From Diphasiastrum complanatum (taxonomy: Eukaryota > Streptophyta > Lycopodiopsida > Lycopodiales > Lycopodiaceae): 64,000 nt of DNA. How positions within the stretch are numbered: the first letter of the stretch is position 1; every line of letters starts with the position of its first letter. The notes under the pieces are model-generated. The model was not told the DNA's origin. It saw only the letters and a program-made list of their open reading frames with translations, and ran no database searches. Positions 3,894 through 56,739 of this stretch are shown here, piece by piece. A program made the position numbers and the translations under genes. The DNA lies in the NCBI GenBank assembly GCA_029204225.1, contig CM055114.1, positions 11,779,634 to 11,843,633 of the forward strand, read 5' to 3'.

Positions 3894-3996
3894 GAGATGG
3901 CTCCACGCGGATCTACTCCTACTGTCCCTCGTACCCCAACCTCTCTTCCCCCACGAAGGACCACCCGCTCCCCTCTCGCTATTATCTCCTCCCCCC

Positions 3997-4134
3997 CCAT
4001 CGCTGAAACTCACACCTCCTCCATCGCTGAAAATACCTCCCCCATCGCTGAAACTCACACCTCCCCCATCGCTGAAAATACCTCCTTCATCGCTGAAACT
4101 CACACCTCCCCCATCGCTGGAAACAGCACCTCCC
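3997..4134 (+). repeat. In-frame 45-bp (24+21) coding minisatellite in LINE ORF1
   Basis: Alternating units CCATCGCTGAAACTCACACC.. (24 bp) and CCATCGCTGAAAATACCTCC.. (21 bp) begin at 3997, 4021, 4042, 4066, 4087 and 4111. Both lengths are multiples of three, so they keep the frame and code for alternating IAETHTSP and IAENTSP peptides. The period was counted directly on the sequence. Confidence 0.9.
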
Positions 4135-4164
4135 TCGATGGAAAAAGCACCCCGAGGGTCTACA

Positions 4165-31427: not shown

Positions 31428-31731
31428 CTTTGGCACCTCAAGAGAAATTGAGGTATGATAGGAGGGCTAAGAAAGTTCTACTTTTGTTGGCAAGAAGAAA
31501 GATAGGTCAAAGCTAAAATGTTTCTATTGTGGAGTCAAAGGACATTTTGCTAGTGATTGTTTCAAGAAGAAAACAGATCAAGGTGAAAAGCAAAGCAATC
31601 TAGCTTTGGATGAGGATGGTGTTGATGAACAAAACTCAAATGATTCCTTTGTTAAGTGTTCATGTTTGTTGGCTAAACATGGAAGTATTGATCCTTGGTG
31701 GATTGGTAGTGGAGCTAGCTCACATATGAAT
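31428..31731 (+). pseudogene. Copia gag knuckle/protease fragment
   Basis: GKKKDRSKLKCFYCGVKGHF ASDCFKKK is a CCHC knuckle. It is followed by DEDGVDEQNSNDSFV, LAKHGSIDPWWIGSGASSHM and N (protease active site DSG changed to GSG). The wording is close to the element E and 61-63-kb copies, so it is the same family. It is cut off exactly where LTR D begins at 31732. Confidence 0.85.
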
Positions 31732-33148: not shown

Positions 33149-33733
33149 ATAAGAATTACCAATTCCTAGGCTCTCTTTTTTTAGGTGTTGCCCATCCCCA
33201 ATCATGGCGGAGAAGATCCAAAAGGGGTGATCAATCCCTCAGCTCGTCCCCAGTTCTTTATAGACTCCCTTGAGCCTTCATTGTAGACTTATGAAAAAGT
33301 CTTCATTATAGACTCCCTTGAGCCTTCATTGTAGACTTATGAAAAAGCCTTCTTATGGTACCCTTCATAAGCTTAAATAAGCTTTCAAATTCTTGTTCTT
33401 GTTCCTTAGGTATTTCTTCACATACCTACACAAACCTTAAAGAAAGGTTAGTTGTGAAATTTTACCATTTAGAAATGGTTCATCATATAATTTTCTAAGT
33501 TCTTAAATCTTTAAATTCTACTAATAGAATTTGTACATCATCACAAGCTGTTAATAGGAATCACAGTTTCATGAATTGCTCATCTATAGGTAGTAATACC
33601 TGCACATGCACTCAATTCTTTTGAGAAATCAAACTTATTAAATATGAGATCATATCTTAGTTAAATCATTTGTGAAAAACAAAATGAATGGAAGACGGGA
33701 TAGTCTTCATTTATGGGGCCTTTTGCCTCTACA
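33149..33733 (-). repeat. LTR G copy 2, with internal 48-bp tandem duplication
   Basis: Inverted relative to copy 1 at 28207. A 48-bp unit is repeated at 33259-33306 and 33307-33354 (TATAGACTCCCTTGAGCCTT..), present once in copy 1. The minus-strand text GGAGGGGTGTAATT just before its TGTAGAGG start (33733) is a plausible polypurine tract for the Ty3 element to its right. Confidence 0.82.
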
Positions 33734-36333: not shown

Positions 36334-36597
36334 TGAATATTCAATCATGTATTGAGATTTTTATGCAATTTGAAGGTCTAATTCTCGTGGATCTCCCAAG
36401 TGTAGTCGATTTTTGTTCTTGTATCAAAAAGATCTTGGAAAAAAAATGAGATTCGAGCGGAAGGAAAATCAATTCAAAAAAAAACAAAGATGCAAGGTTC
36501 TATGTGTTGGCATTTGGGTCATACATGAACATCAACACTTTCACCAAAAAATCTACAAAAATTGAAGTTTGACAAACCTTGGCTCTGATACCAAAAT

Positions 36598-38018
36598 TGT
36601 GAACTCCAAGGCAAAGTTCTTCCTAGACTTAAGTCCACAAAATGTGCGAATGTGAGCTTGACTTGCAATGCAAAATTTTGAAAAACCAAATGAATTCTTA
36701 GAAACTTTAAAAACATCACATACAAATGAAAAATGATGTAAGTCATTCATTCACATCAAGCATCCACATGAGACATGATGAGGGGTCAAGATGGGGAAAC
36801 CCCCCCCCCCCCCCCCCCGCTCGCGCGAAGGAAAATCTTTACTTATGCATGATCAATTGGCAAGATCCAATTACATATACATCTTTGAAGTGTCCTCAAA
36901 AACTTTTTTAAAAAAAAGGTAATCTTTAAAAGTGAACAAAATCATATGGGATTCTAAAGACAATCTTTCCTTGATCCAAATTCAAAAATATAAATGCTAG
37001 ACTTTCAGAACATGGAAACTAGAAATATAATAATTGGTTTTGCTTATATGCAAAGGTAAAGGACTCAAGAATAGTGATATGCAAAGAGAAAGGAATGGAG
37101 ATCTTATGCATGCAATTGTTTTATCATGAGGAATGATGTCATGAAAAGTTTTAAGAGGTGGAAAATGAATGCATGCAACTAGTTTTGTGACTCTTGGTCC
37201 AAAAATGGAAGTTTCTTGATCATGCAAGCTTGGGAATGGATCTAAAATGATAGTAGCTTTATTGCATGTAGGGAAAGAGTGTTCAGTTGCTGGAAAATGA
37301 AGGTTTGAAGGCCGAGTTAGAGAGAGAGTAAGAGAGTTGTTCGTGTAGGTACAAGAGAGAGAATTAGCTTTTTTGGTGAGAAAGATAGGAAAGGGTAGAG
37401 AGGGGGTTTGAGGAAGGTGAATAGGGATGAGAGAGTGTGTGAGAGGAAGGGAAGAGAGAAGAGATAAAGTGTGTGCGTTGAAGATGGTGGATCATCCAAG
37501 AGTTCCCATAATTTTGGCATGGTCTCCTTGAGCCATACCTCCAAAATCACCATCTCCAAGCACCTACACATACAAGTAAACAAAAGACAAGCAAAATATT
37601 TATTAATTGGAATTAGGGGATGGTGGGAGGGCACACTACATCTTTTCTAGGGAGTTTGTAGGCTTTCCAAAGGTGGTGATGTGTCAAATTGAAGTGTGTG
37701 AGGTGTGGGGGGAGACTTATAGTGGAGTAAAGGTAAGTGGAGTGAAAGAATGATGTGTAAAGGTGAGGGAGGGTTGCATGGGAGTTAGAATTTGTCAAGT
37801 GAGAGTGGAGGAGGGCATCGTTACCTATGTGTCCATAAGCTCTTAAGCCATGTGAAAAAGTAGGTAAGTTATTGTTGACATGCAAGGAACTTGGTAGTTG
37901 GCTCAACGTTTAATGTTAGCCATGATTTAGTTTAATTTTCTATGTTACAACTTGGGAATTCACCCAAGTGCAAACTTTCTAGGGAAGGGGGTCTAGTATA
38001 TGTCCATCTTATCTTGCC
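36598..38018 (-). repeat. Right LTR D, with poly(C) expansion
   Basis: About 1421 bp, preceded by the primer site complement. It carries a run of 19 C at 36800-36818 and then GCTCGCGCGAAGG. Confidence 0.85.
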
Positions 38019-39193
38019 ATAAAGGAGGAGTTGCCCAATTTGGAGACTCTTCATGGAATTCGCATCTCTTACTTGAAATACACAAAGGTTCAAGTAGCAA
38101 GATTGGCGTGATCTTGATTCAAAAGAACTTTTTGGAAGGATCCTACAAAACAATGCTCAAGAAAATTGGTTATGATTTGAACCTAGAAACTCACAAAGGT
38201 TTCATTTTGTCTTGATTACCTCAAATTTGACTTCTTTGGACTTCTAGTCACAGTTCTTACACTCCCTCACAAAGAAGAAATGAAGATTAGTGATGTACTT
38301 TCAAGAGTACTATTTTTGGCAAGTAGATTTGTGGATAACATCGGATTTGGAGCTACTTCTACTGGCTAATGTGGATACATTGCATCTAGTCAAGTTAAAC
38401 TAGATTTTTGGTGAAGTACCTAGAAGTTGCTATATTAGAGCAAGTGGCCAAGTGACATTATGGCTGTTATAAATAGCTATAATAGCGTGGAAAATTATCT
38501 TCATGTTCTCATTTTGTATGGAAAACTGTTCTCTTTTGATTATATGTCCATCTCTTTCATATTTCTCATGATATCTTGAGTTCTAATGTATAGAATGTGA
38601 ATTTTCTTGTTGTACTTGAATCCACACATGTATCTTAGTGTCATATCTACATGAATTTTGCACTTCTAGCATGGTAGATGTATGATTTCTGGTTTGTGAA
38701 TGATTTTAGATGTGCATCCAAATTTTAGCAAGATCTTGTTGATCCATCAAGCGTGTTTTGGATCTAAATTTCTCACATGGTATCAGATCAGGTTGCAGGC
38801 TAAAGTTGGTGGATCTGCCAAATATAGAGGTGAATGTGAGGGCGGTATCAATTCTATGTGGAGTTGGAGTGGTTTCTAGCTCAAATCAAACATTTTCAAG
38901 TGTAGAAAGTGGATTTTTTATTTTCTAGCATCATGTTAGGTCAAAGCACTTGGAGTAGGCAGATTTTTAAGTCCACTTATTGTAATGTGGAGACAAAAAT
39001 CTCTCATGATTGTGGATGTTGCATTCTATTAGTAGATGTATCAAGATTCTAGCATTTGCATATAGCTTTTGCTTGATTCAATATTTTGCATTTTTTAGAA
39101 AACCCTAAATTTGATAGGATCTCTTGATTTTGAAGTTGCTGGACTTTTCAAGAGTGTGTTTCAATCTTAGGAAAGTGCAAACCTTCAATATAT
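38019..39193 (+). other. Non-coding; probable 5' LTR end with primer site at 38778
   Basis: TTTCTCACA followed by TGGTATCAGATC (38778-38789) looks like a plus-strand LTR end and an initiator tRNA-Met primer site with a late mismatch. The LTR start, probably between 38300 and 38400, cannot be fixed. No pol follows, because repeat F starts at 39194. Confidence 0.4.
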
Positions 39194-39509
39194 CTATAAG
39201 GGAAAGCTCCTCAAGATCTTGCTTACAAGACAAACACAATGGAAAACACACAATGGAGAAACCACTCAACCAAGTAGAAGCAACCAATCAACTCTAGAAG
39301 CTTCAATCCCAAGCCAAGGAATATGAAACATGAAAGTAGACTGAGAGCCTGGAAATAGATCAACCACAAGATGATGTAGTAGGGCGAGTTTGGCCTCCTT
39401 ATATACAACCTAGAACCATATGTGCACATAGTCATGGAAGGTCCTAACTCCCCTATGCATAGATTCATCTAGAATAGAATCTCTATGCATGGATCCTCTA
39501 TTCATAGAA
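39194..39509 (-). repeat. LTR-like repeat F, left copy
   Basis: CTATAAGGGAA..GCTC to CTCTATTCATAGAA, shared in order with 60529-60845 (common blocks TTACAAGACAAACACAATGG, CAACCACAAGATGATGTAGT, GCGAGTTTGGCCTCCTTATA). It truncates gene P. Confidence 0.85.
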
Positions 39510-40307
39510 ATGATGGATGAGGGAAGCCCATCTGGGATTGAAATGTCGTGAATTTTTCATCAGATGGTCTGCCTCGTCCATCCTCAGCTATATTTGATAA
39601 AGTATTATTCAGACATTCTTCACTGGTCATAAGACCCTCCTCATCATCAAAATCAATACCATCAACAAGGTCATCTGTCTCAAAATCTACAAAGTCGAAG
39701 AATTCAAAAATTGTGCCGGATAATAAAATAGAACCTCGTCCTCACAATAGTCAAAAAATTTACATAAATCAGCAATAGTAAAATATACATCGTAATATAA
39801 TATACAGGCAAATTGAAAAGACATTTCGAATCCTCCATAGATTTGGATTCATCATCAAATGTATTTTGGCCAATGAAAGAATCCCGGAGAACATCAATAT
39901 TTAAATCAATGAAGTCATTTTCTTTATCAGGAGTGTCGATAAGAAAGTGACTTATATCCTTAATGGCTGACTGAACAGAGGAGGGTGCAAAAGGATCAAC
40001 AACAAGAACTTCATCATCATCTGGGATCTGAACTAACAGAAAAAGTATGAAACCACTATGATATTCAACCATTTCTTGTTGCAATATGGACACAGAACTA
40101 CTTTTGAAAAGATCAAACAATTTGGTGAACATTCTATCCAGTCTATGTCTAAAAGCTGGGAAGAAATGAACAAGATCAGTATAATGCATGTACTGGAGTT
40201 GACCTATGGAGAAAACAGGCTTGCTAAGTATATCTCTGAATCTGACATAATGTTCATAAAATACGTCAGAATTTGGTTGTGCAGTCCTGAAAACATGTAG
40301 ATATGGC

Positions 40308-41045
40308 TGTTGAATTTCACACATGTGGAATGTCAACAACATGTACTTGTGATCTCCTAAGGTGTGTAGATGCACCAAGATCAAGACTAGATTGAGATTC
40401 AAGATCTATATTTGATTCTATGGCAAAAACACACTACTACATGCATTCAATCACTTCCAACTCTCACTCACACGTGTGGGAAGTATTCAAAAAATAATCT
40501 AAGTAGAAACAAGCTGCTCTCCTCGGGTAGAGAGAGAAAAACCATCATGAGCTCTTGGGTAGAGAGAGAAAGCTAGAAACTCAATAACTCACAAAATCCA
40601 TAAAATCACCAAATCAATTAGATCCAAAATGAGGAGTACAATGATACTAGTAGATCCACGAGCTACCACTATGCTTAACTATGATTGGACCATATTTTGT
40701 CACCTCTTGATCCTATTGGATCATTGATCCATACACCTCTTAATTCTATTGGACTATATTCAAGCACACCTCAATTTCCTATTGGACCTCACAAGGTTCC
40801 ACCTCTAGATCCTATTGGACCTCTTGGAACTCATCAAACAAAAGTTTTACACTTGTCTACATTCTAATTGGCACGTGTTTAGCCTCTTACTCTATTTTGG
40901 CTCAATAGTGGCATTACAAGTGGAAATGCATAATTTGCCATCTATGCCAATTTTATTCCTATCAACATCCTACACCTAGATGCTTGATGTAAAAAAACAT
41001 AAGACCCCTATATCTAACATAGATAATCTTTTTCAATTCTTCACA
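40308..41045 (-). repeat. Left (3') LTR of copia B
   Basis: 738 bp, preceded by TSD ATGGC. It carries one perfect CACACGTGTG (40469) and one CACACATGTG variant at 40318. Confidence 0.95.
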
Positions 41046-41063
41046 CTCCTCCTAAAAAATTAT

Positions 41064-42550
41064 CTATAAAGATTTGAGCATTGATCTTGATATAACTCCA
41101 AGATTAGATCTATGCTTGATGAAAGCACTTTTGCTCAAAGGCTTGGTGAGTAGATCGGCAATACAAGAGGACGAGTTGACATGTTCCAAATAGATTTCTC
41201 CTCCAATAAGCTTTTCTCTCACAAAATGGTGTGCCACTTCTATGTGCTTGCTTATTGCATGAAATATGGGATTATTGGCAAGAGCTTGGGCCGAGATGTT
41301 ATCACATATGATCATTGGTAGATCATCCTCCTTAATGCACTTTAGCTCCATTAATAACCTCTTGATCCAAAGTACTTCTTTGGTAGTTGTAGTGAGTGCT
41401 TTGTAATCGGCCTCACATGAAGAGAGAGATATAGTATCTTGCTTTTTGAAAAGCCAAGATATTAGATTGCCTCCAAGAAAGATAGTGTATGCACTAATAG
41501 ACTTTCGATCCATCTTGTCACTTGCAAAGTCCGAATCCGAGTAGCCAATAATGGATAGATCTTCACTTTTATAGAGTAGACCATAATCACAAGATGAAAA
41601 TACATATCTTAGAATCCTCTTGGCCAACTTCCAATGATGGATCTTAGGATCTTGCATAAATTGACTCAATTTGTGCACACAAAAACTTAGATCGGGCCTA
41701 GTAATGGTAAGCCAAATCAAGGAGCCTACAAGACTCCTAAAAAGTGTGATGTCCTCAAAGGATCTTTCATCACCTTTATTAGGATCTTTTACAATTTGCT
41801 CCATTGGAGTATCTATGCTCTTAGAATTTTCCATAATTTTTTCAACATAGAGTGAGCATATCTAGATTGGCATATAAAGACATGATTTTCATAAAAATCA
41901 ATTTCTAGGCCTAGGATGTAATGCATCTCTCCTAGATCTTGCATTTTAAACTCACATCCAAGTGCTAGCTTGGTTTCATCAACTAGCTTGATATAACTTC
42001 CACAAAGAATAATGTCATCAACATAAATTAGAAGAATGACAATATTGCTATCAACAAACTTTAGATACATGGAAGGATCATAGTCACTAAAAGTAAATCC
42101 TACTGAGATAAGAAAATAATTAAGTCTTGAATACCATGATCTTGGTGCTTGCTTGAGTCCATAAAGACTTTTGAAGAGCAAGCACACTTTGGACTCATCC
42201 TTGATGAATCCTTGAGGTTGTTCCATATAGATCTCCTCCTCAAGATAACCATTTAGAAAAGCATTGGATACATCTAATTGGAACACTTTCCACTTGAAAA
42301 AACAAGCAAGAGAAATAAGAATTCTTATTGTCACCATCTTTGCAACAGGTGCAAAGGTCTCCTCATAATCAAGACCATGGATTTGAGCAAATCCTTTGGC
42401 ACATAATCTTGCTTTATGCTTGTTGATGGTGCCATCATGATTGAACTTGATCCGAAATACCCACTTGCAACCAATCACATGCTTGTTGGATGGAGGATCT
42501 ACAAGCTCCCAAGTATTGTTGGTGATCAATGCATCATACTCTTGCTTCAT
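41064..42550 (-). pseudogene. Copia B reverse transcriptase and RNase H
   Basis: 42550-41813: [69 protein letters not shown] (catalytic YVDD), LGEMHYILGLEI. 41834-41064: RNase H with TRPDLSFCVHKLSQFM, GYSDSDFASDKMDRKSIS, ISLSSCEADYKAL, MIICDNISAQALANNPIFHA, HIEVAHHFVREKL, IADLLTKPL. The two overlap in different frames, so one frameshift separates them. Otherwise it is well preserved. Confidence 0.92.
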
Positions 42551-42795
42551 GGCATCATACCACTCCTTGGTATTGAGTGCCTCTTGTACATTCTTTGGCT
42601 CTTAATGAGAGACATAAAAAACATAGTTAGTGGAATCAAGATCCACTTGTTTGCCTTTGTCAACATATGAGAGCCTCTTAGGCTCGGATCTATCTCTCAT
42701 GGATCTTCTTGGTGAGAAAATCCGAGGAGAGTCTTCTTCAAATCTCGACCCCATCATATCATGATTGTCTTCAAAATCAATAATTGATGATGCAT

Positions 42796-43710
42796 CTATA
42801 GATTTCTTGATCCTGGCCTCTTCAAAAGATGAGTGTTGATCTTCATGAAAGACAACATCTCTACTTTCAATAACTTGAGAAGTAGAGAGTATAAAGACTC
42901 TATAGGCCTTCTTGTGGATGAGTATCCAACCATGATCCCTTTGCATGCACTAGGATCTTCCTTCTTCCTTGTTTCCAAGGGAATATGGACAAAGCATAAG
43001 CATCCAAAAACTCTAAGGTGATCAACCTTAGGCTTCTTCAAAAATAAGATTTCATATGGTGACTTTCCTCCAAGAGCTATATGTGGGAGCCTATTGCAAA
43101 GATAATTTGCACAATTAATGGCTTCTCCCCAGAAATCTTTGGGCAAAGATGCCTCAATTCTCATAGATTTTGCACATTCACATAGAGATCTATTCTTTCT
43201 CTTGGCCACTCCATTTTGAGATGGAGAGTAGGCACAAGAAAACTCTCTTTCAAGCTCACAAAAATCTTGAAATTTATTGGAGATATATTCACCACCTCCA
43301 TCACTTCTAAGAGCTTTAATCTTGAATGAGAATTGCTTCTCTACATAAGCTTTGAAAATAAGGAAATAATCAAACACCATAGATTTAGAAACAAGAAGAT
43401 ATATCCAAGTGAATCTTGTGTAATCATCAATGAAAGTAACAAAACAAGTGGCTCCTCCCGTGCTTGTGGTTGATGAGAAATGCACATCCGAGTGGATTAA
43501 CTCCAAAGGATGCTTGCTTTTGATAGAAGATCTTGTAAATGGCTTTTTGTGAGATTTAGCAATAGCACAAGCCTCACAAGGCTTGATATTCTTGAAGAGT
43601 GACTTTGGCAAGCCAATAGCTTTGGCTTCTTTGATCATAGAGAGCATGGATTTGTAGTTGGGATGTCCCAACCTCCTATGCCATAATTCCTCCATAGAGA
43701 GCTTGTTCAC
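42796..43710 (-). CDS. Copia B integrase
   Basis: HHCC-type region ELWHRRLGHPNYKSMLSMIK..CEACAIAKSHKKPF. DDE core with LELIHSDVHFS, IKALRSDGGGEY and SQNGVAKRKNRSLCE (Glu of NGVAERKNRT replaced by Lys). C-terminal RVFGCLCFVHIPLETRKKED and IMVGYSS. The E-to-K change at the third catalytic position would be disabling if the alignment is right. The frame shifts after GYSSTRRP. Confidence 0.88.
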   Translation of the reverse strand: MNKLSMEELWHRRLGHPNYKSMLSMIKEAKAIGLPKSLFKNIKPCEACAIAKSHKKPFTRSSIKSKHPLELIHSDVHFSSTTSTGGATCFVTFIDDYTRFTWIYLLVSKSMVFDYFLIFKAYVEKQFSFKIKALRSDGGGEYISNKFQDFCELEREFSCAYSPSQNGVAKRKNRSLCECAKSMRIEASLPKDFWGEAINCANYLCNRLPHIALGGKSPYEILFLKKPKVDHLRVFGCLCFVHIPLETRKKEDPSACKGIMVGYSSTRRPIESLYSLLLKLLKVEMLSFMKINTHLLKRPGSRNL

Positions 43711-44432
43711 AAGAGCAACATTACAAGCATTGATATTCTTCTTCTTGAGCTTGGATGATGAAGCATTAGAGGAATCATCTTCCTCCTCATCTTTGTCTTT
43801 GGATCTGACTTTGTCCTTGTTTGAGGATTGTTGATGCTGGTTCTTGCTCTCCCTTTGTGCTTATCCTTGGCAAAGAGAGCTTTGCCATCATTATGAGTGA
43901 GAGAAAGCTTGTCCATCCTCAAGAGCTTGTACTCTTGTCTTGATTCTTCCGAAATTAGCACACTTTGGAGAGCCTCCAAACTTGGTAGCTCCTCCTTAAT
44001 GGCATAGGATTGGACAAGATTATCAAATTCACTTCTCAAGCCATTGAGAATGACTTGAACTAGCTCATTTTGATTGATGGAATCACCAATACAAGCAAGT
44101 TCTCTATGAATATCTTTTACTCTCAAAACATAACTAGATGCACTCTCATCACTCTTTTGGATACTTTGAAACATTTGATTCCTAAGAGTGAGAAGCCTAG
44201 AGGTATTCTTAGCCTCATAGATAGTCTTGAGACAATCCCAAGCTTCTTTGGTTGTTGTACAAGTACCTATTTCCCTCAATATCTCATTAGAGACATTCAT
44301 CTTAATGTAGTGGAGGGCCATCCTAGCTCTCTTTTTGTATTTTTGAACCTCTTGAAGAACTTGTGGTTCTTCTTCAAGGCCAAGAACTATGTCCATCATG
44401 TCTTGAAGAATCAAGATGGACTCCATCCTCAT
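43707..44432 (-). CDS. Copia B gag (UBN2-type), lacking the zinc knuckle
   Basis: Gag packages element RNA into particles. The frame shows MDIVLGLEEEPQVLQEVQKY, RARMALHYIKMNVSNEILRE, TKEAWDCLKTIYEAKNTSRL, LRNQMFQSIQKSDESASSYV and RELACIGDSINQNELVQVIL. It ends in a basic and then hydrophobic tail after a frame change, without the CCHC knuckle or the DSG protease that follow in related elements. Its start ATG lies after the leader and may be truncated compared with the family's usual MA..LTSSNYxxWK opening. Confidence 0.85.
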   Translation of the reverse strand: MRMESILILQDMMDIVLGLEEEPQVLQEVQKYKKRARMALHYIKMNVSNEILREIGTCTTTKEAWDCLKTIYEAKNTSRLLTLRNQMFQSIQKSDESASSYVLRVKDIHRELACIGDSINQNELVQVILNGLRSEFDNLVQSYAIKEELPSLEALQSVLISEESRQEYKLLRMDKLSLTHNDGKALFAKDKHKGRARTSINNPQTRTKSDPKTKMRRKMIPLMLHHPSSRRRISMLVMLLL

Positions 44433-45258
44433 TTTCCAAATTCAATAATTTGAAGTGGTCAATCGTTCACTTGGTTCCAACAAGGATGAACCCATTGAAG
44501 ACATTTGAAGTGAAGAGAACTCAAATGATGAACAATAAATGTTGCTACACACTCTCAATAGGATCCAATAATAGAGTACAATCTCTTCCTATGAAAGATC
44601 TTGCAACTATTTGTGAATTGATTCTCACTAGCTACACAAATCTCTCTAAAACAAGATCTATTTCACATCAAATGATGGAGTATAGGCAAAGTTAGGATCA
44701 AACACTCTTAGCACATGTGAAATACACTAAGAAACCAAATTTGACTCAAATACAATGATATTGCATGAAACAAAATGGCTAAGATCTCAAAACAGTGCCT
44801 AGATCACATATAGATGAGATTGGTAAGCATTCAACTGTGATTTTGGATCAAACAAGCAATCTCTTGACCAAACCAAATGTGTCTACCTAGGTCTAGGTGC
44901 CCTACCTAACCCTCTTCAAAAGCTTATAACTTTTGATTGGCACAACCAAATGGAATGAAACTGATTGCATCAGAAACTAGATAAAAATAGCTTCAAAACA
45001 AGCTATCAAGCAAGATAAATGGATCAAGTGTGAGAGAACTTCCAAACTAAAATTGGATGTTCCTCACACATGTCTGAGCACCTGATTCCGTACAGTACCA
45101 AGTCAGACCCAATCAATGTCCTTTTGATCTCTTTTGATCCAAGATTGAACAAGATAGCTAGGAAAATGGGCCTTGACAATTTCTAGCTCAAGATTGATGA
45201 AAAATTTTCACTTAGATGGATCAAAATGCATGGTAACCTTAGGTAGGCTCTGATACCA

Positions 45259-45996
45259 TGTTGAATTTCACACGTGTGGACTATCCACAACATGTACTTG
45301 TGATCTCCTAAGGTGTGTAGATGCACCAAGATCAAGACTAGATTGAGATTCAAGATCTATCTTTGATTCTATGGCAAAAACACACTACTACATGCATTCA
45401 ATCACTTCCAACTCTTACTCACACGTGTGGGAAGTATTCAAAAAATAATCTAAGTAAAAACAAGCTGCTCTTCTTGGGTAGAGAGAGAAAAACCATCATG
45501 AGCTTTCGAGTAGAGAGAGAAAGCTAGAAACTCAATAACTCACAAAATCCATAAAACCACCAAATCAATTAGATCCAAAATGAGGAGTACAATGATACTA
45601 GTAGATCCACGAGCTACCACTATGATTAACTATGATTGGACCATATTTTGTCACCTCTTGATCCTATTGGATCATTGATCCATACACCTCTTAATTCTAT
45701 TGAGCTATATTCAAGCACATCTCAATTTCCTATTGGACCTCACAAGGTTCCACCTCTAAATCCTATTGGACCTCTTGGAATTCATCAAACCAAAGCTTTA
45801 CATTTGTCTACATTCTAATTGGCACGTGTTTAGCCTCTTACTCTATTTTGGCTCTATAGTGGCATTACAAGTGGAAATGCATAATTTGCCATCTATGCCA
45901 ATTTTATTCCTATCAACACCTACACCTAGATGCTTGATGTAAAAAAAACATAAGCCCCCTATATCTAACATAGATAATCTTTTTCAATTCTTCACA
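45259..45996 (-). repeat. Right (5') LTR of copia B
   Basis: 738 bp, between the primer site and TSD ATGGC. Perfect CACACGTGTG at 45269 and 45420. Confidence 0.95.
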
Positions 45997-46102
45997 ATGG
46001 CCTGAATTTACTGTGGAAGTAGTCTAGGTTTTCAGTAATCCCAAATTCACTCGAAAATGAACTCAAGCCTGATTCTCGTTGAGGATGATGAGGAAGAGGC
46101 CA

Positions 46103-46924
46103 TGGCAGTAGCGTGAATATTGCACTTGTGCGCGCGGGAGAACTGAACCAAAACTAACTATCAAAATGGCGTAGAAGATGGATATGTACGATAGATAGAT
46201 ACTATCGCACTTGTGTGCGAGGAGGTATACTTGCAAGCAAACGGACAGCAATGAGCGCGCACAAAAGCGATATGTTGCGAATTTCAAAAACGCAAAAGGT
46301 AAAAAAATTATTCGGTTTCCATGCCATTTATACTAAATTTTTGCACATGTGGTCAACGGACTTATGACACGTGTCTACTTTCAATTCGACAACAGGCGCA
46401 GGCACATGTGAGATGACACTTGTACACATGTAATGACACCTGAACATGTGTCGCGTGTTCATTCGATTGCTCATAAACACGTGTCGCTCTCGCATTCGAT
46501 CGTACAAATCCCACATGTGTAATGTGAAACGGTGACATGTGTCGCTTGCTCATTTGTCCGTACAACTCCCACACCTGTAAGAGGACGTTCTTTCGCATGT
46601 GCGAACCCCGATATAAAATCACAAATTTCGATGAATTTTTTTCACTTTTTTTGTTGCTCCACATATCGCATTTGTGCGCGCCCTTCACAATCGAAATTCC
46701 TCCTACTGCCTTCCATGCGTACAAGTCCGATACGTCTGCCTATGTGTCATCCCATATCGCACTTGTGCGTCTTTCCTCAAATATAATCGTTCTCTCTGAT
46801 ATTCGGCTCGCATAGGTCCGATATACCGTACATTCTGTCCGTACATAGCGATCCTCTGCGAGTTCTTTATCATCCCTTCCTTCTCATCCTAACCTTCACG
46901 CACAAGTCCGCTATCACATAGTTC
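46103..46924. promoter_or_regulatory. Divergent promoter region with repeated CACATGTG/ACACGTGT palindromes
   Basis: This is the space between gene P (-) and the histone-Ulp1 gene (+). Palindromic or near-palindromic words recur: CACATGTG at 46344, 46403 and 46512, ACACGTGT at 46367 and 46477, ACACATGT at 46424, ACATGTGT at 46444 and 46535. GCACTTGTGC-like words occur at 46121, 46206, 46669 and 46758. The words often run on as TGTCGC. These are E-box/G-box cores of the kind bound by plant bHLH/bZIP factors. The density far exceeds the surroundings. Their role is inferred. Confidence 0.6.
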
Positions 46925-48592
46925 ATGCCCATGGATTGGAGAAAGCAGACAAGGAGAGACTTCTTCTCTCCTGGCTCATCCTCGTCTCCTGCGATTGCCA
47001 TCACACCGCCTGCTAGACCTAGAACGCGCACCCGCAGTAGGTGGCTCTCTGAGATACGCAAGTATCAGAGGTCAACAGCTCTGTTGATCCCAAGAGCTCC
47101 ATTCTACTGTGCTGTCCGAAACATAACAAGAAATGATCTCGGACAGCACATTAGATTCACACCGAGTGCTCTTCAGTGCCTTCAGGAGGTTGCTGAAGAT
47201 TATATTAGCCTTTTTTTTTAGGATTCTTTTTTACTTGCCATCCATACCAAGAGGGTTACCATAATGCCCAAGGATTTTCAGCTTTTGATGAGAATGAGGG
47301 ATAGGTACTTTAGGTTACATGTATCTCAGCCTGCTGCTCCTAGACCAACTCCTGTAGATAGGACTCATCTTCCTACAAAGCGTCCTAGGAAGCAAACAGC
47401 CCCCAAGCGTGCTCCTAAGAAAGTGAAGTCTATCCCAGAATCTATTGTAGATAATGTTGTTGTTGATAATGCTGTAAATATAGCTACCTCTATTTTGGAT
47501 ACTCCTATAATTGCTATAGATACTACACATCCACCTCCTCCTCCTCCTCCCAATTTCTATACATATGTAGATCCAGGTGATTATCTTAAATTTGAGAAAG
47601 ACATATCGGATGCTATAGATACAATTGGTACTCCTTTTTGTTTTAGACTAGAAGAACTTGATTTTAGTATTAATTTTAGAGTTCTAGATTGTCTGGATCT
47701 CAAAGACAGATGGGCTTCTATCAGTGATCCTGTGATAGAGTCCGGACTGGCACTCTTGCAATTTGACATTGCAAGAGATTCATCAAACGCGTTGCTGGTG
47801 CTGAATAACTTTCTGCTCCAGGCCTTCAAGGAGAATAATGACACATTGTCACAGTATCTGACAAGTGGATTCACACCAGCAACAAAGTATCTGGTCATTC
47901 CTTATCATACCAAGTAAGATATATTAAGTGTTTCTTCCTGTTTTATGCATTAACATTGACATTTTCAATTTAAATAGTTCTCAAAATTGCCGCTAAAGTA
48001 CTTTCAATCTTATTTTGCAGTGACCACTGGAGTTTAAACCTGATCTCTGTTAAGAGATCTGTAAATAATATTATTAAATGTTCTTGTGTCAAGATGAATT
48101 CGACGAGAAATACGCATAAGGATGTAGATATATTCATTCCATATCTAAGTAAATATATTCCTACAAAAGTTTCCCATTCCGTGGACTAGCAGATCGTCAG
48201 CTTGGTAGTAAACTCTGTCTTTCTTAATAGCATTTTAAAATCAGTATTCTAATGAAATATTTTCAATCTAATTCATTCTGTTTCATAATTGATTTCTTGT
48301 GTGCTGAATTATTTTGCAGTCACCCCAGCAAAATAATTCATTCAGCTGTGAGTGGTACACATTGTACAATGCCAAGTTGTTTTTTGAGTGGTTCATCCTT
48401 CAACAAGATGTTGATATTTCTAAGGTAATAAATTTTGTTTATTCTTATTTTGGAATCATGATTAGTTTTCTATTTTGGTGATGTTATTGGCCATTACTAA
48501 TACATGAATGTTCTATTTTGCAGTTTACACTTCCTGAGTACACATCAAGCCAGGTGTACAGATTTAGACAAGAAATTATCTAGAGTATATTG

Positions 48593-49244
48593 TGTGAAGG
48601 ATTTCAGATCATTCAAGATCCAATCCATGTCCCAAATCTTTGGTTACAATAAGGAGCAAACCAACAATCTTGCCAATGTAGAAAAATCAGCATCTACATA
48701 CAAAATGAGATGCAAACTCTAAGATATATTGATCAAACATGAACCAAAACATAAAATATGTTTGTTGTCCGTACAATTACAGTACCCTACTGTATTTCAC
48801 ACGTGTGGAACCGAAAATAGCAACAAATGATCATTCTACACATAGAATTGCAAGATAACACCAAGATAGTGCACCAATGATTAGTAGAACCCAAAGAGAA
48901 CCATGTATAATGATGAAATGAGAGAGAGAAGAGAGAAGATGACTCTCTCCATGAGTTACATCCTTTTATAGCAGGTCCAAACCCTATTTGGCCACTTGGC
49001 TTTCCCACCAAAATGCTAACCCTACCAATTTTGGGTCTAGATTCAATGTACCCAACTTATTCAAATTGAATCTACTCAAACTCGCATTCTATCTTTCCCA
49101 CACTTTCAAAAAGTGTTTATTCAGATGAAATTTAGAGTAATGAACTTTGAAAAGTCAACCTCTAAGTCTAAAACAAGTTTTGGCCTCAATATGTCAAATA
49201 TGAAAATATTGCAAAATGTGATGAAACTAGTTGAATCTTTCACA
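48593..49244 (-). repeat. Left (3') LTR of copia E
   Basis: 652 bp, with CACACGTGTG at 48798 and a minus-strand TATA-like word near 48965 (TATAAAAGG complement). Confidence 0.95.
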
Positions 49245-49830
49245 CTCTCTCTTCAACTAGTTTTAGCATAGACTTTGATAATACTCCAAGTGAAGTCCTA
49301 TGCTTCATGAAAAAGTCTTTTCCCAATGCTTTGGTGAAGATATCAGCTACACATTCCCTTGAAGACACATGTTGAAGCTCCACCTCCTTTGCAATGACTC
49401 GCTCCCTCACAAAATGATATTGTATCTCAATATGCTTGTTCCTAGCATGAAAGATAGGATTGGATGCCATTCTTTGGGCTGATTGATTGTCACAAAAGAT
49501 GATTGGGCTCTCTGAAAAATCCAGCAAGTGAAGATCCTTGATCATCCTTTTGATCCATACCATCTCCTTTGTGCAATGTGTAAGAGCTTTGTACTCGGCC
49601 TCACTAGATGACAATGAGATAGTGGCTTGTTTCTTTGACATCCATGATATAGCTCCATCACCTATGAAAATACAATAAGAACTAATGGATTTCCTATCTA
49701 TTATATCTCCAGCATAGTCCGAATCTGAAAATCCAAAAAGATTAGGTGATGATCCCTCATACAATATGCCAAAATCTCGAGTTCCAATGATGTACCTCAA
49801 AACTCGCTTTCCTAGCTTCCAATGCTCCTA
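49240..49830 (-). pseudogene. Copia E RNase H remnant
   Basis: HWKLGKRVLRYIIGTRDFGI, NLFGFSDSDYAGDIIDRKSI, ISLSSSEAEYKAL, PIIFCDNQSAQRMASNPIFH, HIEIQYHFVRERV, VADIFTKALG. It starts abruptly at about 49830, where the unknown insert ends. It runs to the polypurine tract. Confidence 0.9.
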
Positions 49831-50090
49831 GCATAGTTTTTGCCAATAGAACTTTGATCCATCATAAGAATGATCTTCTTCCTAAGAATAGATCTCCTTT
49901 AAATGATCATGTAATGCTCAAAATAGGAACAACCATAATTGATATAGAGAATAGTGTCCACTTGAGATGCTTCACTATTTCTTACATCAATTTTACATGT
50001 AAAAATGTGACTAGAACATGAAGAATCAAATAGAATGTAAATGAAATGATTCCACCATGCTTCCAACTCTGAACTCTCTGGAAAAGTACA

Positions 50091-53000
50091 TCAAACAAAC
50101 AATAAATGTGAGTGATCAACTTTTGCTTGCATGTCTCCTCCTTCTTTGTCCTTTGTTGCCTTGTATCCACCATGATACTCCATGAATGAGCCTCCATCTT
50201 CATCTTGCCACAAGAAACCATCAAACCTTGGAAATCCATGAGTAGGTGAGTACATTAATGATGCAAATCCTGCACCACATGACTCCATAAACCAAGTAGT
50301 TTGCACTAGTCCATCTTCAATATCTACTTGACACAAGAAAATGACCATGAATTCACCAAAAAATGACAATCTCCAAGTATTGGCACCAAGTAGCTCAACA
50401 CTTGAGAACTTAGCCATGGATGAGTGACATAATGAACCTCCAATAGCTTCATTTCCATCAGCAAAATCAGCCAAGAATGCTAGTACAAATCCAACATCAA
50501 AACAATGCTCACCAATGTAGCTAGTTTTACCATATCTTGACAATTTGCACACATCCACATGAAATTGCTCAAACATGAGATAGAACAAGTAAAGTAAACT
50601 TGAACAACACTTCCTTGCTGCTCCTTTGACCTTACTTGAGTCTTCAATATACTGCAAAAACAGATCCATAACACCTTTGCCAATTAACTCTCCTTTGATG
50701 CTCTTGACTAGCTCCAAATTGCCAACTTCCCTTTTGACTAGTTGAAGCGCTTTGAGATCAACCTCTTGATCTTCAACTTGACCATCAAATTCATTGAACA
50801 AAATTTGTTTTCCAGATCCATTACTTGCTTTTACAGCAAGATAACATCCATCCACTTGCATAGCCCCATGTACACAAGAAGATCCTCCAAAAGATGTTCC
50901 ACTCTTCATAAGAGACCGATACTCAAGATCCATTGGTTGGATCCACTCCTCTTCTTTCCTTGCTTGATCTACACTTGTAGGATCATCCAAAGAGGTTAGG
51001 AAAGCAACATAATTTCCAGAAACTACTTGCTTGCCCTTTTGATCATATGTGAGCCTTGAAGGTACTTGTCTTTCTCTTGATGTTCTCCTTGGCTTTTGAC
51101 TTGATGAAGGTCCATCATCACCACCATCCAAAGTAGGATCCTTCTCATCAACATCAAGAATGTTAGAACCATCTAATTTACCATCAATCATGCTTGAAGA
51201 CACCTTTGGAATGTTTCCCTCATCAAAAATGACATCTCTACCAACAATCACTTTGTCAGTAGAAGGAATGTAAACCTTGTAGGCTTTACTCACCTCACTA
51301 TATCCAACAAAAATATCTCTTCTTGAAGATGGATCCTCCTTGGTCCTATCATCAAGAGTAATGTTGACATAGCATGTGCATCCAAAGGTTCTTAGAAAGT
51401 TGACACTCGGCCTCCTCTTGAATAGCATCTCAAAAGGTGTCCTTCCATCCAAAATAGCACTCGGCCACCTATTGCACAAGAAATTGGCACACAACAAAGC
51501 TTGATCCCAAAATGGTTTGTCAAGATTAGCACTTAACCTCATAGATTTAGCACTTTCACATAAAGTTCTATTCTTCCTTTCAGCCACTCCATTTTGTTGT
51601 GGGGTCCTTGATGTTGTATACTCCCTCTTGATCCCATGCTCATCACAAAAGGCCTTGAACTTGTTAGATATGTACTCACCACCATTGTCACCTCCCAAGC
51701 ACTTGATCTTTGTGGAGAATTGGTTCTCCCTTGCATTCTTGAACTTGACAAAGACATCATACACTTCATCCTTGCTCTTTAGTAGATAGATCCAACAAAA
51801 TCTACTAAAATCATCAATGAATGTTACATACATCTTAGCTCCACTATTGCTAATTGTAGTAAATCCATGAATATCCGAAAGTACAAGCTGAAAAGGCTTT
51901 GTAGATCTAGAAATAGATCTAGTACAAGGTAGTCTATGTGACTTAGACAAAGCACAAGACTCACAAACATGCTTGTCATTACTTAAGGAACTTGGAAGAC
52001 CAATCACAACCTTCTTCCTTGCCATTACCTCCAATGACTTGAAGTTGAGGTGTCCCATCCTTTTGTGCCAAACCTCTTGAATAGAAATTTGCTCCCTTGG
52101 AACACATCCAACTTGGTTAGCAATAACACAAGCATCAAGTTTAAACAACTTCCCTTGCCTTTTACCTTTTCCCATCAAGACATCCTTCCTTTTGATCAAA
52201 CAAGCATCTCCATCAAACTCCACCTTGAGGCCCTTACTTAGCATTTGACTCACACTAAGCAAATTCTTGATAATAGATGGAATAAACAAGACATCCTCCA
52301 AATGAACATTCCTATTTGTAGAGAGAGAAATAGAAATTGTGCCAATCCCTTTGATTGCACACTCACCATAATTGGCAGTGTAGATCACCCTCTTGTCATC
52401 TCCATATGCCAACAAAGAAGTGAAGTACTTTTTGTGAAAGGTCATGTGTGAACTTGCTCCACTATCAATCCACCAAGGATCTAGATCTCCATAATTAGCA
52501 AGCATACATGAAGACATCACAAAAGCATCATCATTTGCATCTTGCACATCCAAACCATCCTCATCAAGAGTAAGATTACCTTGCTTGTCTCCTTGATCTC
52601 TCTTCTTCTTGTAGCACTCACTTGCAAAGTGTCCTTTGATGCCACAATAGAAGCACTTGAGCTTTGATCTATCCTTCTTTTTGCCACTTGAAGAAGCATC
52701 CACTTGATCTTGCCCTTTAGACCACTTGCTTTTGGTTTTGCCCTTGAATTTGCCCTTTGTGAACATAGCATCCTCTTGAAGTGTCGATGTAGATCCACCT
52801 CTTGCTTGAAGCCTATATTCCTTATTGATGAAGATCTCTTGAAGATCCATCAAACTTGGCAAAGTCTTTTGAATAGTAATACTTTGAACAATGTTAGCAT
52901 GAGCATCCAACAAGCCATTAAGAATCACTTGAATAAGCTCTCCTTCCTTAATGCTTTCATCTATGCAAGCTAACTCATCATTCAATGCTTTCATTCTCAA
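50091..53000 (-). CDS. Copia E polyprotein: gag C-terminus, protease, integrase, then a 280-residue unknown segment
   Basis: A 969-codon open frame. Order: rest of gag (LIQVILNGLLDAHANIVQSI), knuckle CFYCGIKGHFASEC, protease PWWIDSGASSHMT, pre-integrase EVWHKRMGHLNFKSLEVMAR, integrase core with LVLSDIHGF, LGGDNGGEY and PQQNGVAERKNRTLCES, and C-terminal YVNITLDDRTKEDPSSRRDI. At about DLEYRSLMKSGTSFGG (near 50900) the expected RT is absent. About 280 residues of unrelated sequence follow (CVHGAMQVDGCYLAVKAS, LKALQLVKREVGNLELVKSI, KGVMDLFLQYIEDSSKVKGA, VDIEDGLVQTTWFMESCGAG) up to the stop at 50091. I do not recognise that part. Confidence 0.9.
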   Translation of the reverse strand: MRMKALNDELACIDESIKEGELIQVILNGLLDAHANIVQSITIQKTLPSLMDLQEIFINKEYRLQARGGSTSTLQEDAMFTKGKFKGKTKSKWSKGQDQVDASSSGKKKDRSKLKCFYCGIKGHFASECYKKKRDQGDKQGNLTLDEDGLDVQDANDDAFVMSSCMLANYGDLDPWWIDSGASSHMTFHKKYFTSLLAYGDDKRVIYTANYGECAIKGIGTISISLSTNRNVHLEDVLFIPSIIKNLLSVSQMLSKGLKVEFDGDACLIKRKDVLMGKGKRQGKLFKLDACVIANQVGCVPREQISIQEVWHKRMGHLNFKSLEVMARKKVVIGLPSSLSNDKHVCESCALSKSHRLPCTRSISRSTKPFQLVLSDIHGFTTISNSGAKMYVTFIDDFSRFCWIYLLKSKDEVYDVFVKFKNARENQFSTKIKCLGGDNGGEYISNKFKAFCDEHGIKREYTTSRTPQQNGVAERKNRTLCESAKSMRLSANLDKPFWDQALLCANFLCNRWPSAILDGRTPFEMLFKRRPSVNFLRTFGCTCYVNITLDDRTKEDPSSRRDIFVGYSEVSKAYKVYIPSTDKVIVGRDVIFDEGNIPKVSSSMIDGKLDGSNILDVDEKDPTLDGGDDGPSSSQKPRRTSRERQVPSRLTYDQKGKQVVSGNYVAFLTSLDDPTSVDQARKEEEWIQPMDLEYRSLMKSGTSFGGSSCVHGAMQVDGCYLAVKASNGSGKQILFNEFDGQVEDQEVDLKALQLVKREVGNLELVKSIKGELIGKGVMDLFLQYIEDSSKVKGAARKCCSSLLYLFYLMFEQFHVDVCKLSRYGKTSYIGEHCFDVGFVLAFLADFADGNEAIGGSLCHSSMAKFSSVELLGANTWRLSFFGEFMVIFLCQVDIEDGLVQTTWFMESCGAGFASLMYSPTHGFPRFDGFLWQDEDGGSFMEYHGGYKATKDKEGGDMQAKVDHSHLLFV

Positions 53001-53018
53001 AACAAAAGTACTTGGACT

Positions 53019-53378
53019 TTATTCATTCTTTTGCAAACAAGAAAAGATTTGCCTTTTTAGAGTCAACACTCTAGAAGTAGACTTGGATTCATAAAGCTTC
53101 TTCAATGAATTCCAAGCTTCCAAAGATGATGTGCACTTACCAACTTCCTTGAGAAGTTCATTGGTAACATTCATCTTTATCATGTGTAGAGCCTTCTTGG
53201 CCCTCTTGTCATACCTCAATTGATCTTGTTGTGTTGCTGGTCTCTCCTCCAAACCTACAACAATATCCAAAACATCATTCATCTCAAGAAGTGACTCCAT
53301 CCTCACTTTCCATAATGAATAGTTACTTGAGGTAAGCCTATCATTGGCTTCCAACATGACTCCAATTGATGTTGCCAT
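53019..53378 (-). CDS. Copia E gag N-terminal part
   Basis: MATSIGVMLEANDRLTSSNY SLWKVRMES, the usual copia gag opening, then VLDIVVGLEERPATQQDQLR, ALHMIKMNVTNELLKEVGKC and LTLKRQIFSCLQKNE. One TAA stop separates it from the following frame at 53000, which continues with MKALNDELACIDESIKEGEL, so a single change divides gag. Confidence 0.9.
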   Translation of the reverse strand: MATSIGVMLEANDRLTSSNYSLWKVRMESLLEMNDVLDIVVGLEERPATQQDQLRYDKRAKKALHMIKMNVTNELLKEVGKCTSSLEAWNSLKKLYESKSTSRVLTLKRQIFSCLQKNE

Positions 53379-53978
53379 GTAGCAATGACCTGATCTTCTC
53401 TTTCAGCCTATTTCAATGCACAAAGCACTCCTTTGAACAACAACAAATGCTTTCAAAAGAAATCACCAAGATTTGAAACTATCTCACAAATTCTCTTCTA
53501 GCACTTATCCAAGCAAATCAACACATAGAATCATGGAATCTTGATCAACCTATGATCTATCATCAATCTAATGACTTTTGCCACTTCCTAAGATTGAAAC
53601 ACACTCAAATGAAGTCCAGCAACCTCACTATCTAGAGATCCAATCAAAATTAGGATTTTGACAAAATCACAAAAAATTGACTATTCCAAATCTACATGCA
53701 AATGCTGAAAATTTGGTATGCAATCTATAAGCCACCACTTAGGCTGAACCAATGATCCAAAAATCGGCCGAATCCAGCATGTGAATTCAAAAAATGGAAT
53801 TGAACAAGTATATTGACCTATTTAGTGTTTTGATCTACAAAAGATCTGATCTACAAAGGCAAAAAATCCGATTTTGGTGTAGAATCCTCTCTAGCATGCT
53901 CTAGACTTGATATCTTCACCAGATCATTGATAGGTCTGATTTTTTCCTTCATAACCTGAAACAAAAGCTCTGATACCA

Positions 53979-54630
53979 TGTGAAGGATTTCAGATCATTC
54001 AAGATCCAATCCATGTCCCAAATCTTTGGTTGCAATAAGGAGCAAACCAACAATCTTGCCAATGTAGAAAAATCAGCATCTACATACAAAATGAGATGCA
54101 AACTCTAAGAGATTTTAATCAAACATGAACCAAAACATAAAATATGTTTGTTGTCCGTACAATTACAATACCCTACTGTATTTCACACGTGTGGAACCGA
54201 GAATAACAACAAATGATCATTCTACACATAGAATTGCAAGATAACACCAAGATAGTGCACCAATGAGTAGTAGAACCCAAAGAGAACCATGTATAATGAT
54301 GAAATGAGAGAGAGAAGAGAGAAGATGACTCTCTCCATGAGTTACATCCTTCTATAGTAGGTCCAAACACTATTTGGCCACTTGGCTTTCCCACCAAAAT
54401 GCTAACCCTACCAATTTTGGGTCTAGATTCAATGTACCCAACTTATTCAAATTGAATCTACTCAAACTCGCATTCTATCTTTCTCACACTTTCAGAAAGT
54501 GTTTATTCAAATGAAATTTAGACTAATGAACTTTGAAAAGTCAACCTCTAAGTCTAAAACAAGTTTTGGCCTCAATATGCCAAATATGGAAATATTGCAA
54601 AATGTGATGAAACTAGTTGAATCTTTCACA
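53979..54630 (-). repeat. Right (5') LTR of copia E
   Basis: 652 bp, adjoining the primer site at 53978. CACACGTGTG at 54184. Confidence 0.95.
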
Positions 54631-54704
54631 TACTGGCTAGGGCAAGGCTTCAGCCTCCCATTATTGATGATGGTGCAAAGGATGATGTAGTTATACTAAA
54701 TTAA

Positions 54705-55028: not shown

Positions 55029-56285
55029 TTATTTTGTTCTATTTTGAAATGGAAATAAACATAAAGTACTTATGAGTCTTCCGTTGATGATAAATCTAAA
55101 ATATGTTAGTAGATTGGTTTGTAATAGCATGAGCTCTGTTCTGATAAAAGCAAGCTTCCAATGCTCTTCCACCTCAACCATAGTCAAATATTTTTCATTG
55201 TAGATAATGCTTATCTCCATTCGGTTTGTGTGACCATTTAGTTCAAAGTCTTGATCCAGTGGTAGCCATGTACCTTCAATTTTCTTGTATCTCTGGTAGC
55301 TAAATGTGAGACTGAGCATTTGCTTTTCGATATGATAACGAAAGATCATTGAGGACTTTTTAATCCTGCATTCTATGTCATTATTTGTTTTACTATCCCA
55401 GCCTTGATCCATGAGATCTGACAAAGTCTCATCTGATAAATCCTTGCAAACAAATAAAGTTGGTGTCCTATGAACACTAGCACTCGAGAAAAAATCAACA
55501 AATGTATGCAATGAGATAAACCAACCTAGGTGAACAATTTTTGAGCCTGTGCTTATCTTCATAGCATTTTTAATATCAATGAGTAGCTTGCATCTCAAGG
55601 ATTCAGAAACAATGCTGTCAGGAGTAGGCCACTCATCACTTTGAAAGCTAGGCAATCGAATTGCTTCCAGCTTGCCAAAACCTCCATCTGTTTGTGGCGT
55701 ATATAAAGATTCATAAAAATAGATACCACAATCTGCAAGTTCCTTTGGACTTCTTCCTCTGTATTGTAGCTTTCCAACATCAGAGTGAATCACATCTAAT
55801 ATTCCTGCAAGTGATTGTGCGGGCTCTCATTCACTTATGCATGATGGATATAAATCTGAAAGAAAAAAAACAATGTTGAAGCATTTAAATCATAATCTGA
55901 AGAGCATCAATAAAGGAAATCACCTATGAATGTTGTAGAGTGCAAATGTTTTGATATACTTACAATTTCATTTTTGATGATCATGAGGATTGATATCATG
56001 TACTTTGATTTCTGAATGCATATATACATGTTGCACTAAGACTTCTGATATCGATTGACCTCCCAGGGTAGTCTTAAACTCCAAGATTTTTGCTTTCCAA
56101 TAAGATTTGTAAGTCATTTTTGCTCTTTTCTTTTGTCGAAAATTGCCCTTTGATGATGGATGCAGCAATACCCATGAGTTCTTCATATATTTTGTTGGCT
56201 TCCAGTTATCAGCTTCATCTTTCTCATTGTAAAGAATCACATAATCGATTGTAGATCTGGGTCTCCTCGCCATTGCTATTTTCAA
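55029..56285 (-). pseudogene. Gene Q: unidentified protein with a possible N-terminal BAH-like domain
   Basis: Two exon-like parts. 56285-55970: ATG then ARRPRSTIDYVILYNEKDEA, WKPTKYMKNSWVLLHPSSKG, and MTYKSYWKAKILEFKTTLGG QSISEVLVQHVYMHSEI. The pattern of a hydrophobic strand, WKAKIL, then V.VQ..Y...E faintly recalls a BAH domain. After an intron with donor GTAAGT (about 55965) and acceptor CACTTGCAG (about 55806), 55800-55029 reads VIHSDVGKLQYRGRSPKELA, DCGIYFYESLYTPQTDGGFG, DSIVSESLRCKLLIDIKNAM, IVHLGWFISLHTFVDFFSSA, VCKDLSDETLSDLMDQGWDS and FTYQRYKKIEG-like text. A TGA lies near the exon-1 end. Transcribed toward the histone-Ulp1 gene. No confident family. Confidence 0.5.
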
Positions 56286-56739
56286 AGCTTGGGCACCAAA
56301 AATCTCTCTGATATGTTACTTAATTTTAATTTTTCGTATCACATTTAATCTAATGTGAATGCCAACATAGTCACAGTTACTGTGTATACCATATTTTATA
56401 TAACTATACATACTATATTTCTATAACTGTAACTAGTATAGTTAGAAAATTTCATTATACTAACCAACATAGTAAAATAAATCTAACTTGAGATATTGAC
56501 GTCGGGCAGATTAGCATGTGTCGGGCAGGAAGAAGAAACCAATGGAATACGTCCATGCTGCCCAGACACAAATTTCAAAGTTTTCTATATTGCATTTTTA
56601 TTTTTTAGTTAATTTGAACTACATTACGTAGATTTCAAATCTGTGCATTTTGATTGGGCCTGGTGACGGTCAAAACTAAAGAAAAAAAATAAAAGTATCT
56701 TTACAAAGGGTCTTTTTGATCTTGAGAACTCCTCTAATG
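56286..56739. other. AT-rich edge of the block with GACGTCGGGCAG words
   Basis: Contains repeated ACTATA/CTATAACT words (56390-56470), then GACGTCGGGCAG and GTGTCGGGCAGG (56500-56530). No gene. The GACGTC words recur in the 63-kb segment. Confidence 0.45.

Follow-up and report, generated by a model that had tools for sequence, protein, structure and literature searches.

A histone H3 fold fused to a C48 protease-like domain in a high-copy DNA transposon of Diphasiastrum complanatum

The stretch of DNA analysed here (the window: 64,000 nucleotides of Diphasiastrum complanatum, GenBank assembly GCA_029204225.1, contig CM055114.1, positions 11,779,634 to 11,843,633 of the forward strand) holds a gene that joins a histone H3 fold to a domain of the C48 (Ulp1-like) protease family. 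We call this gene H3-C48. It lies in a copy of a DNA transposon with terminal inverted repeats (TIRs), which is without its transposase region and left terminal repeat, the left 3.8 kb being gone. Parts of accessory gene 2, the four exons of H3-C48, accessory gene 4 and the right terminal repeat remain, with copia elements nested in gene 2 and in exon 4 (Table 1). The window copy of H3-C48 is a pseudogene, dead because of three in-frame TAG codons (residues 97, 384 and 445) and the two copia insertions. The original prediction, made from the window alone, had described one frame through both parts; the H3 part (46931-47302), the C48 boxes, the GT-AG introns and the order of H3 before C48 all stand, but the frame is not open. 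Since all of the stops are TAG, an alternative genetic code was considered and rejected, as five of eight other copies are stop-free in this gene. Even in the decayed window copy, positions 46928-47218 alone match the Pfam family Histone (PF00125, 1.6e-14), and exon 3 alone gives PF02902 at 0.015, under the family cut-off.

Copies were sought across the assembly that contains the window (1.745 Gb, 5,176 contigs) with the H3 piece as query. There were 5,258 first-look candidates, and all 150 places scored match at E<=6.6e-49 with 85-100% identity, so the H3 piece is not a product of chance. Ten copies (E1-E10) were chosen from the 150 listed matches for an open exon 1 and fetched with their flanks; because these, and the N copies described below, were selected for open frames, the fractions of open copies are not genome-wide ones. 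E2 and E3 are too truncated for splicing. Among the other eight, the spliced frame is stop-free in E1, E4, E5, E7 and E10 and broken in E6, E8 and E9, when the splice sites of the window are used. The open copies span 1413-1440 bp (470-479 aa plus stop), which replaces the single value of 472 codons (1416 bp) first given for the gene.

Profile searches with these intact homologues uphold the fusion. The E5 protein matches both Histone (PF00125, 1e-27) and Peptidase_C48 (PF02902, 1.1e-10), and Peptidase_C48 bit scores of 42.2 (E5), 39.9 (E7) and 37.5 (E10) exceed the Pfam cut-off of 20.7. In PDB, the best relative of the H3 part is H3.3C (1.3e-22) and all 60 sequences listed are H3; relatives of the C48 part are a Ulp1-like protease (8.9e-4) and yeast Ulp1 (1.3e-3). 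The fusion is thus real, and the gene belongs to the transposon and not to the host centromere. We consider it very probable that H3-C48 is a conserved gene of this transposon.

The catalytic residues of the C48 domain are less complete. His, Gln and Cys are all found in the main subfamily, with E1 devoid of the catalytic Cys, and in neither of the two HMMER alignments does an Asp stand opposite the Asp of Ulp1 at the third place of the triad. The complete set of a His-Asp-Cys triad with Gln was therefore not found in these alignments, and protease activity stays putative. By eye, the Asn of an MNS motif present in both subfamilies may occupy the place of the Asp. The domain may cleave SUMO.

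The element ends in inverted repeats that carry the sequences CATTAGAGG... and CATTAGAGGAGTTCTC.... A left end was located in three copies (E5, E7 and E9) and a right end in seven and in the window; E5 and E7, which have both, measure 8.7 and 9.3 kb. A TIR pattern with up to 3 mismatches matches the assembly 2,417 times (1,177 forward, 1,240 reverse), against 0 for the reversed pattern. The gene order is a candidate transposase, the unrecognised gene 2, H3-C48 and the unrecognised gene 4. A target-site duplication (TSD) is absent in eight of nine two-ended copies (three of the nine paired by spacing alone) and measures 3 bp in one. A paralogous empty site for E7 is contiguous and without duplication, with flanks 87% and 82% identical, and a second, weaker empty site, of copy f, agrees with it. 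There is also an internally deleted derivative of 2.6 kb with another element copy on its left flank and none on its right; being inside another copy on the left only, it does not represent a simple insertion.

The element is a large DNA transposon of the TIR type and may belong to the CACTA/EnSpm-like CMCT clade. This clade comprises EnSpm/CACTA, Mirage, Chapaev, Transib, Plavaka, ESTA and Lanisha. Its transposases have the pattern D, D, C(2)C, H(3-4)H, E (PMC12730594). The termini within the inverted repeats are CA..TG, as in the clade, and the transposase has candidates for the second D, for C(2)C and for H(4)H in the clade's order: GD..C(2)C is present in five of six candidate transposases, H(4)H in five of six and both in four of six, the D and E residues being assigned by eye. 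In contrast to the clade, which makes TSDs of 2-5 bp, eight of nine copies have none, for which reason we hold the placement back; the element also carries H3-C48, and its transposase has no Pfam match above cut-off and chance-level matches only in PDB. Gene 2, tried against Pfam only, gave nothing above cut-off, and gene 4 found chance-level matches only in PDB. A TnsA-like reading of the N-terminal part of gene 4 (PF08722, 0.003, in one copy) was rejected at 18.5 bits, below the cut-off of 26.5. By eye this part (55971-56315 in the window) looks BAH-like. An AlphaFold model of the second exon of the window's gene 4 alone (pLDDT 32.6) was discarded.

The same architecture is repeated in a second subfamily. 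D1, a diverged and decayed neighbour element, has the four genes in the same order and the same terminal CTCCTCTAATG. Its identity to the main subfamily is 51-69% in the transposase, 29% in gene 2 and 48-50% in gene 4; within H3-C48 it amounts to 38-41% in H3, 23% at the C48 start and 48% in the Cys box. The search gave 4,769 first-look candidates for subfamily 2, and again 150 of 150 scored places match. Five of seven fetched copies (N1, N2, N5, N9 and N12, chosen for a long open frame) have an open first exon with H3, linker and C48 start (352-373 aa), and two are H3-only. N12, the only one spliced, is open over four exons (512 aa), with three introns at places matching those of the main subfamily. 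Pfam recognises its histone (1.1e-15; 1.8e-21 was also scored in the subfamily); its C48 part was assigned from the alignment with the main subfamily and from the box QQDNAFSCGW. D2, a third and broken lineage, keeps H3 and the C48 start. As a side observation, 32 of the 150 scored subfamily-2 matches fall within 2.9 Mb (C3:18.5-21.4 Mb). The two copies read there are open and H3-only (tail and fold, no C48) with a new C-terminus: a truncated histone gene has been amplified locally. A different H3 family, with one relative, was met at C10:47287640-47290680: a 440-codon frame has MAWTKQTARD near its start, then a mostly low-complexity insert of about 280 residues, then an H3 fold (PF00125, 2.3e-25), and no C48 was recognised within 1.9 kb.

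Capture of gene pieces is frequent in plant transposons (PMC13317346), and H3-C48 might accordingly be a passenger, a transduplicated fragment of host H3 and Ulp1 of no use to the element. The stops in many listed copies of the H3 piece agree with this. The fusion is, however, retained in two subfamilies and in a third fragment, and both domains are under purifying selection, from which the linker is exempt in the main subfamily. There, the H3 fold has a dN/dS of 0.49 and C48 one of 0.21, and the linker reaches 0.99 (seven of the ten copies; the truncated E2 and E3 as well as E9 and the window copy were dropped). In subfamily 2 the H3 fold is at 0.22 and the linker at 0.35, and tail and C48 start come to 0.42 (five of seven copies, both H3-only copies left out). 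Between the subfamilies pS is saturated in H3 (0.79), and pN has its minimum in the H3 fold (0.37 vs 0.48-0.53). Purifying dN/dS within the subfamilies and the lowest pN between them imply that the histone is kept by selection inside the element, and we regard the passenger explanation as improbable.

What kind of H3 does the element carry? The original prediction leaned towards CENH3 and suggested that the protein may attach to chromatin, centromeric or other, and remove SUMO there. For a CENH3-type centromeric deSUMOylase of the host speak the residues LLIP.APF and KDF, and a loop 1 longer than that of H3 in two of the three lineages aligned (by one residue in the main subfamily; longer, with RW, in subfamily 2; D2 shows no excess). 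In a tree of 14 rows, on the other hand, the seven element H3s fall into a single clade (92/95), which is separate from canonical H3 and from plant CENH3, so that CENH3 identity is not supported, at a moderate level of branch support. Among the references were three plant CENH3s as well as human CENP-A and yeast Cse4. Support stays below the tool's mark for a strong branch throughout the interior of the tree, and D1 and D2 are long branches. The H3 of E5 is also nearer to canonical Arabidopsis H3.1 (52%) than to three plant CENH3s (46-49%). When an Arabidopsis CENH3 fold was used to find the CENH3 of the host, the top matches were canonical H3 (59%); the genome has thirteen canonical H3 loci (97-99%) besides. 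Moreover, the gene sits in a high-copy transposon with inverted repeats, its window copy has three stops and its places in the genome are not clustered (see below), which leaves a host centromeric function without support. This reading is largely refuted, and we give it hardly any probability.

Among 19 H3 tails read (nine main, eight subfamily 2, one D2 and one further copy), lysine 4 is present in all and lysine 9 in none; copies within a lineage are not independent, and the count thus stands for four H3 lineages. The least changed copies of subfamily 2 start with MARTKQTAR, as does canonical H3, with L replacing K9. In the alignment, D occupies position 9 both in the main subfamily and in the further H3 family; subfamily 2 has L there and D2 has A. 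ARKS, the site of lysine 27, is absent from the tails read.

The promoters of both subfamilies contain CACGTG arrays. In E5, CACGTG occurs six times in the 784 bp between the divergent gene 2 and H3-C48 and nowhere in the other 7.9 kb; shuffled sequences contain it 0.38 times on average and three times at most. Counts inside and outside the array are 6 and 0 in E7, and 5 and 1 in E6. D1, the sole subfamily-2 copy examined, has 14 within 1,041 bp and 0 in 8.9 kb. The upstream region of the window holds 2 CACGTG and 12 relaxed matches in 810 bp.

The H3 fold might alternatively serve targeting, by tethering the transposition machinery to selected chromatin, such as centromeric or H3-rich regions, and directing insertions there. 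Its conservation in the element is in keeping with such a role. So is the density of exact terminal repeats on C1, where, among 100 of the 2,417 places listed, 83 are located, 27 of them at 95-100.7 Mb and 15 at 64.9-66.7 Mb. The main H3 piece, in contrast, is spread as expected by chance: 92 thinned places on 16 chromosomes give 0.322 vs a chance value of 0.333 (sd 0.025), although the thinning of 107 places, from the 150 scored, to 92 at 0.7 Mb hides close clusters. We therefore hold targeting to be unlikely. Packaging or maturation is a further alternative, in which the H3 fold would coat excised element DNA and C48 would act as a processing protease, in the manner of adenain-like enzymes of viruses. 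C48 proteases and adenain have a common fold. Some DNA viruses do encode histones (PMC9145170). Nevertheless, no capsid or packaging gene was recognised in the element ORFs scanned (partner histones were not searched separately), and two scans of viral contigs turned up nothing related to the transposase or to H3-C48. This alternative, too, has a low probability in our view.

We tentatively propose, at somewhat less than even confidence, that H3-C48 is an anti-silencing protein of the transposon. Its H3 fold, together with H4 or a histone chaperone, would let the protein enter or contact the chromatin of the element. A tail with K4 and without K9 and ARKS could not carry the main silencing marks, because K9 and the lysine 27 site are absent. 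The C48 domain would remove SUMO or a related tag from silencing factors nearby, and the promoters with CACGTG arrays would in effect be kept open for transposition. The fuller version, a selfish histone variant in which an H3 evolved in the transposon (K4 kept, K9 lost) and a SUMO-protease-like domain jointly defeat silencing, is conceivable and a shade more doubtful still.

Several observations weigh against this proposal. CACGTG is an ordinary binding site of plant transcription factors, and nothing ties the array to the H3-C48 protein. The loss of K9 could reflect a general decay of the tail, and the linker is itself rich in lysine (PRKQTAPKRAPKK) and could carry marks; phmmer aligns this linker to the H3 tail with no better than a negative score. 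The Asp missing from the triad has been mentioned; the TAG at the second stop codon of the window, in C48, is moreover common to E6 and E8. (A TAG common to E6, E8 and the window may be a recurrent mutation or mark a dead lineage that went on being copied.) In subfamily 2 the linker is constrained as well, so that selection does not single out the two domains in that subfamily. N12 is short of five residues of the H3 fold and of the Trp of the His box, and Pfam gives no C48 match for it. Two further diverged transposase fragments have no H3 in the flanks fetched, and the fourth H3 lineage may not belong to this transposon.

Coordinates of the features of the window copy are collected in Table 1. 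Elsewhere in the window, a tRNA-Thr (agt) is predicted at 9985-10057 (-), and a direct repeat of 1.46 kb, 91% identical, occupies 31729-33152 and 36595-38022.

Table 1. Transposon copy with the H3-C48 gene and nested elements; positions are those of the window.
Feature	Position	Strand	Remarks
Left-truncated transposon piece, part of accessory gene 2	39509..40303	-	92% to E7 element 3806-4612
copia LTR (long terminal repeat) element nested in gene 2	40308..45998	.	96.5% self repeat; transposon broken on both sides; ORFs
LTRs of gene-2 copia element	40308-41045 and 45259-45996		
Accessory gene 2, 5' part	46001..46153	-	
Upstream region common to gene 2 and H3-C48	46154..46930	.	CACGTG array decayed
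H3-C48 exon 1: tail, H3 fold (47045-47302), linker, C48 start	46931..47913	+	TAG 47219-47221
H3-C48 exon 2: C48 His box (NDHW) and MNS motif	48021..48207	+	in-frame TAG 48187-48189
H3-C48 exon 3: C48 Gln/Cys box SPQQNNSFSCEWY	48320..48424	+	
H3-C48 exon 4, first part	48524..48592	+	in-frame TAG 48581-48583
copia LTR element nested in exon 4	48593..54630	-	97.4% self repeat; flanks tattg/tactg
LTRs of exon-4 copia element	48593-49244 and 53979-54630		
H3-C48 exon 4, remainder up to stop codon	54631..54704	+	
Accessory gene 4, second exon, family unrecognised	55032..55826	-	50% identity to subfamily 2
Accessory gene 4, first exon (MARRPRS...), family unrecognised	55971..56315	-	48% identity to subfamily 2
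Right terminal inverted repeat, minus strand reading CATTAGAGGAGTTCTCAAGATC...	56706..56739	-	

The closest functional parallel is offered by VANDAL elements of Arabidopsis. Their VANC proteins, of which some have captured a Ulp1 domain, relieve VANDAL silencing through binding to arrays of short motifs in non-coding DNA (PMC5735166, PMC13317346). We propose a VANC-like job for H3-C48 that would be done by a different route, with a histone lacking a markable K9 and a deSUMOylase-like domain. VANDALs that carry Kaonashi/KIU (non-TIR MULEs) are, like our element, high-copy plant DNA transposons with a Ulp1/C48 accessory gene, and short motifs are repeated in the non-coding parts of both systems (PMC13317346, PMC6117577, PMC5735166). 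Unlike them, the H3-C48 element has TIRs, its C48 domain is fused to an H3 fold and not to VANC, and its motif is CACGTG. No MULE family was found in Pfam at E<=10 (D1 pieces) or E<=1 (main pieces). Our best guess is that the system is like, but unrelated to, the Ulp1-carrying VANDALs. A C48 accessory domain also occurs in another group of DNA transposons, the Cryptons of oomycetes (PMC3212892), but these use a tyrosine recombinase, and no such enzyme was recognised among the scanned ORFs of the present element. Spy transposons are likewise reported without TSDs (PMC4482050); they prefer, however, AAATTT targets and have one gene, compared with four genes and no AAATTT at nine flank pairs in the present case. 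With canonical and centromeric H3 the element histone has in common the whole fold and, in subfamily 2, the ARTKQTAR N-terminus; it differs in its identity of about 50% or less, the loss of K9, the fusion to C48 and its residence in a transposon.

Genes for Ulp1, SET or TET have been reported in transposons (PMC13317346, PMC12730594). A histone-carrying transposon was not found in the literature searched, the coverage of which excluded many subscription papers and Repbase Reports, and the word "histone" does not occur in the main text of a 2026 review on gene capture by plant transposons (PMC13317346). Nor did the literature searched show a DNA transposon that carries and conserves a core histone. 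There is a consequence for annotation: hundreds, perhaps thousands, of H3-like frames in such a genome may be genes of a mobile element rather than variant histones of the host. If functional, the protein would make it possible to ask, in a natural system, whether a histone without a methylatable K9 shields a locus from silencing.

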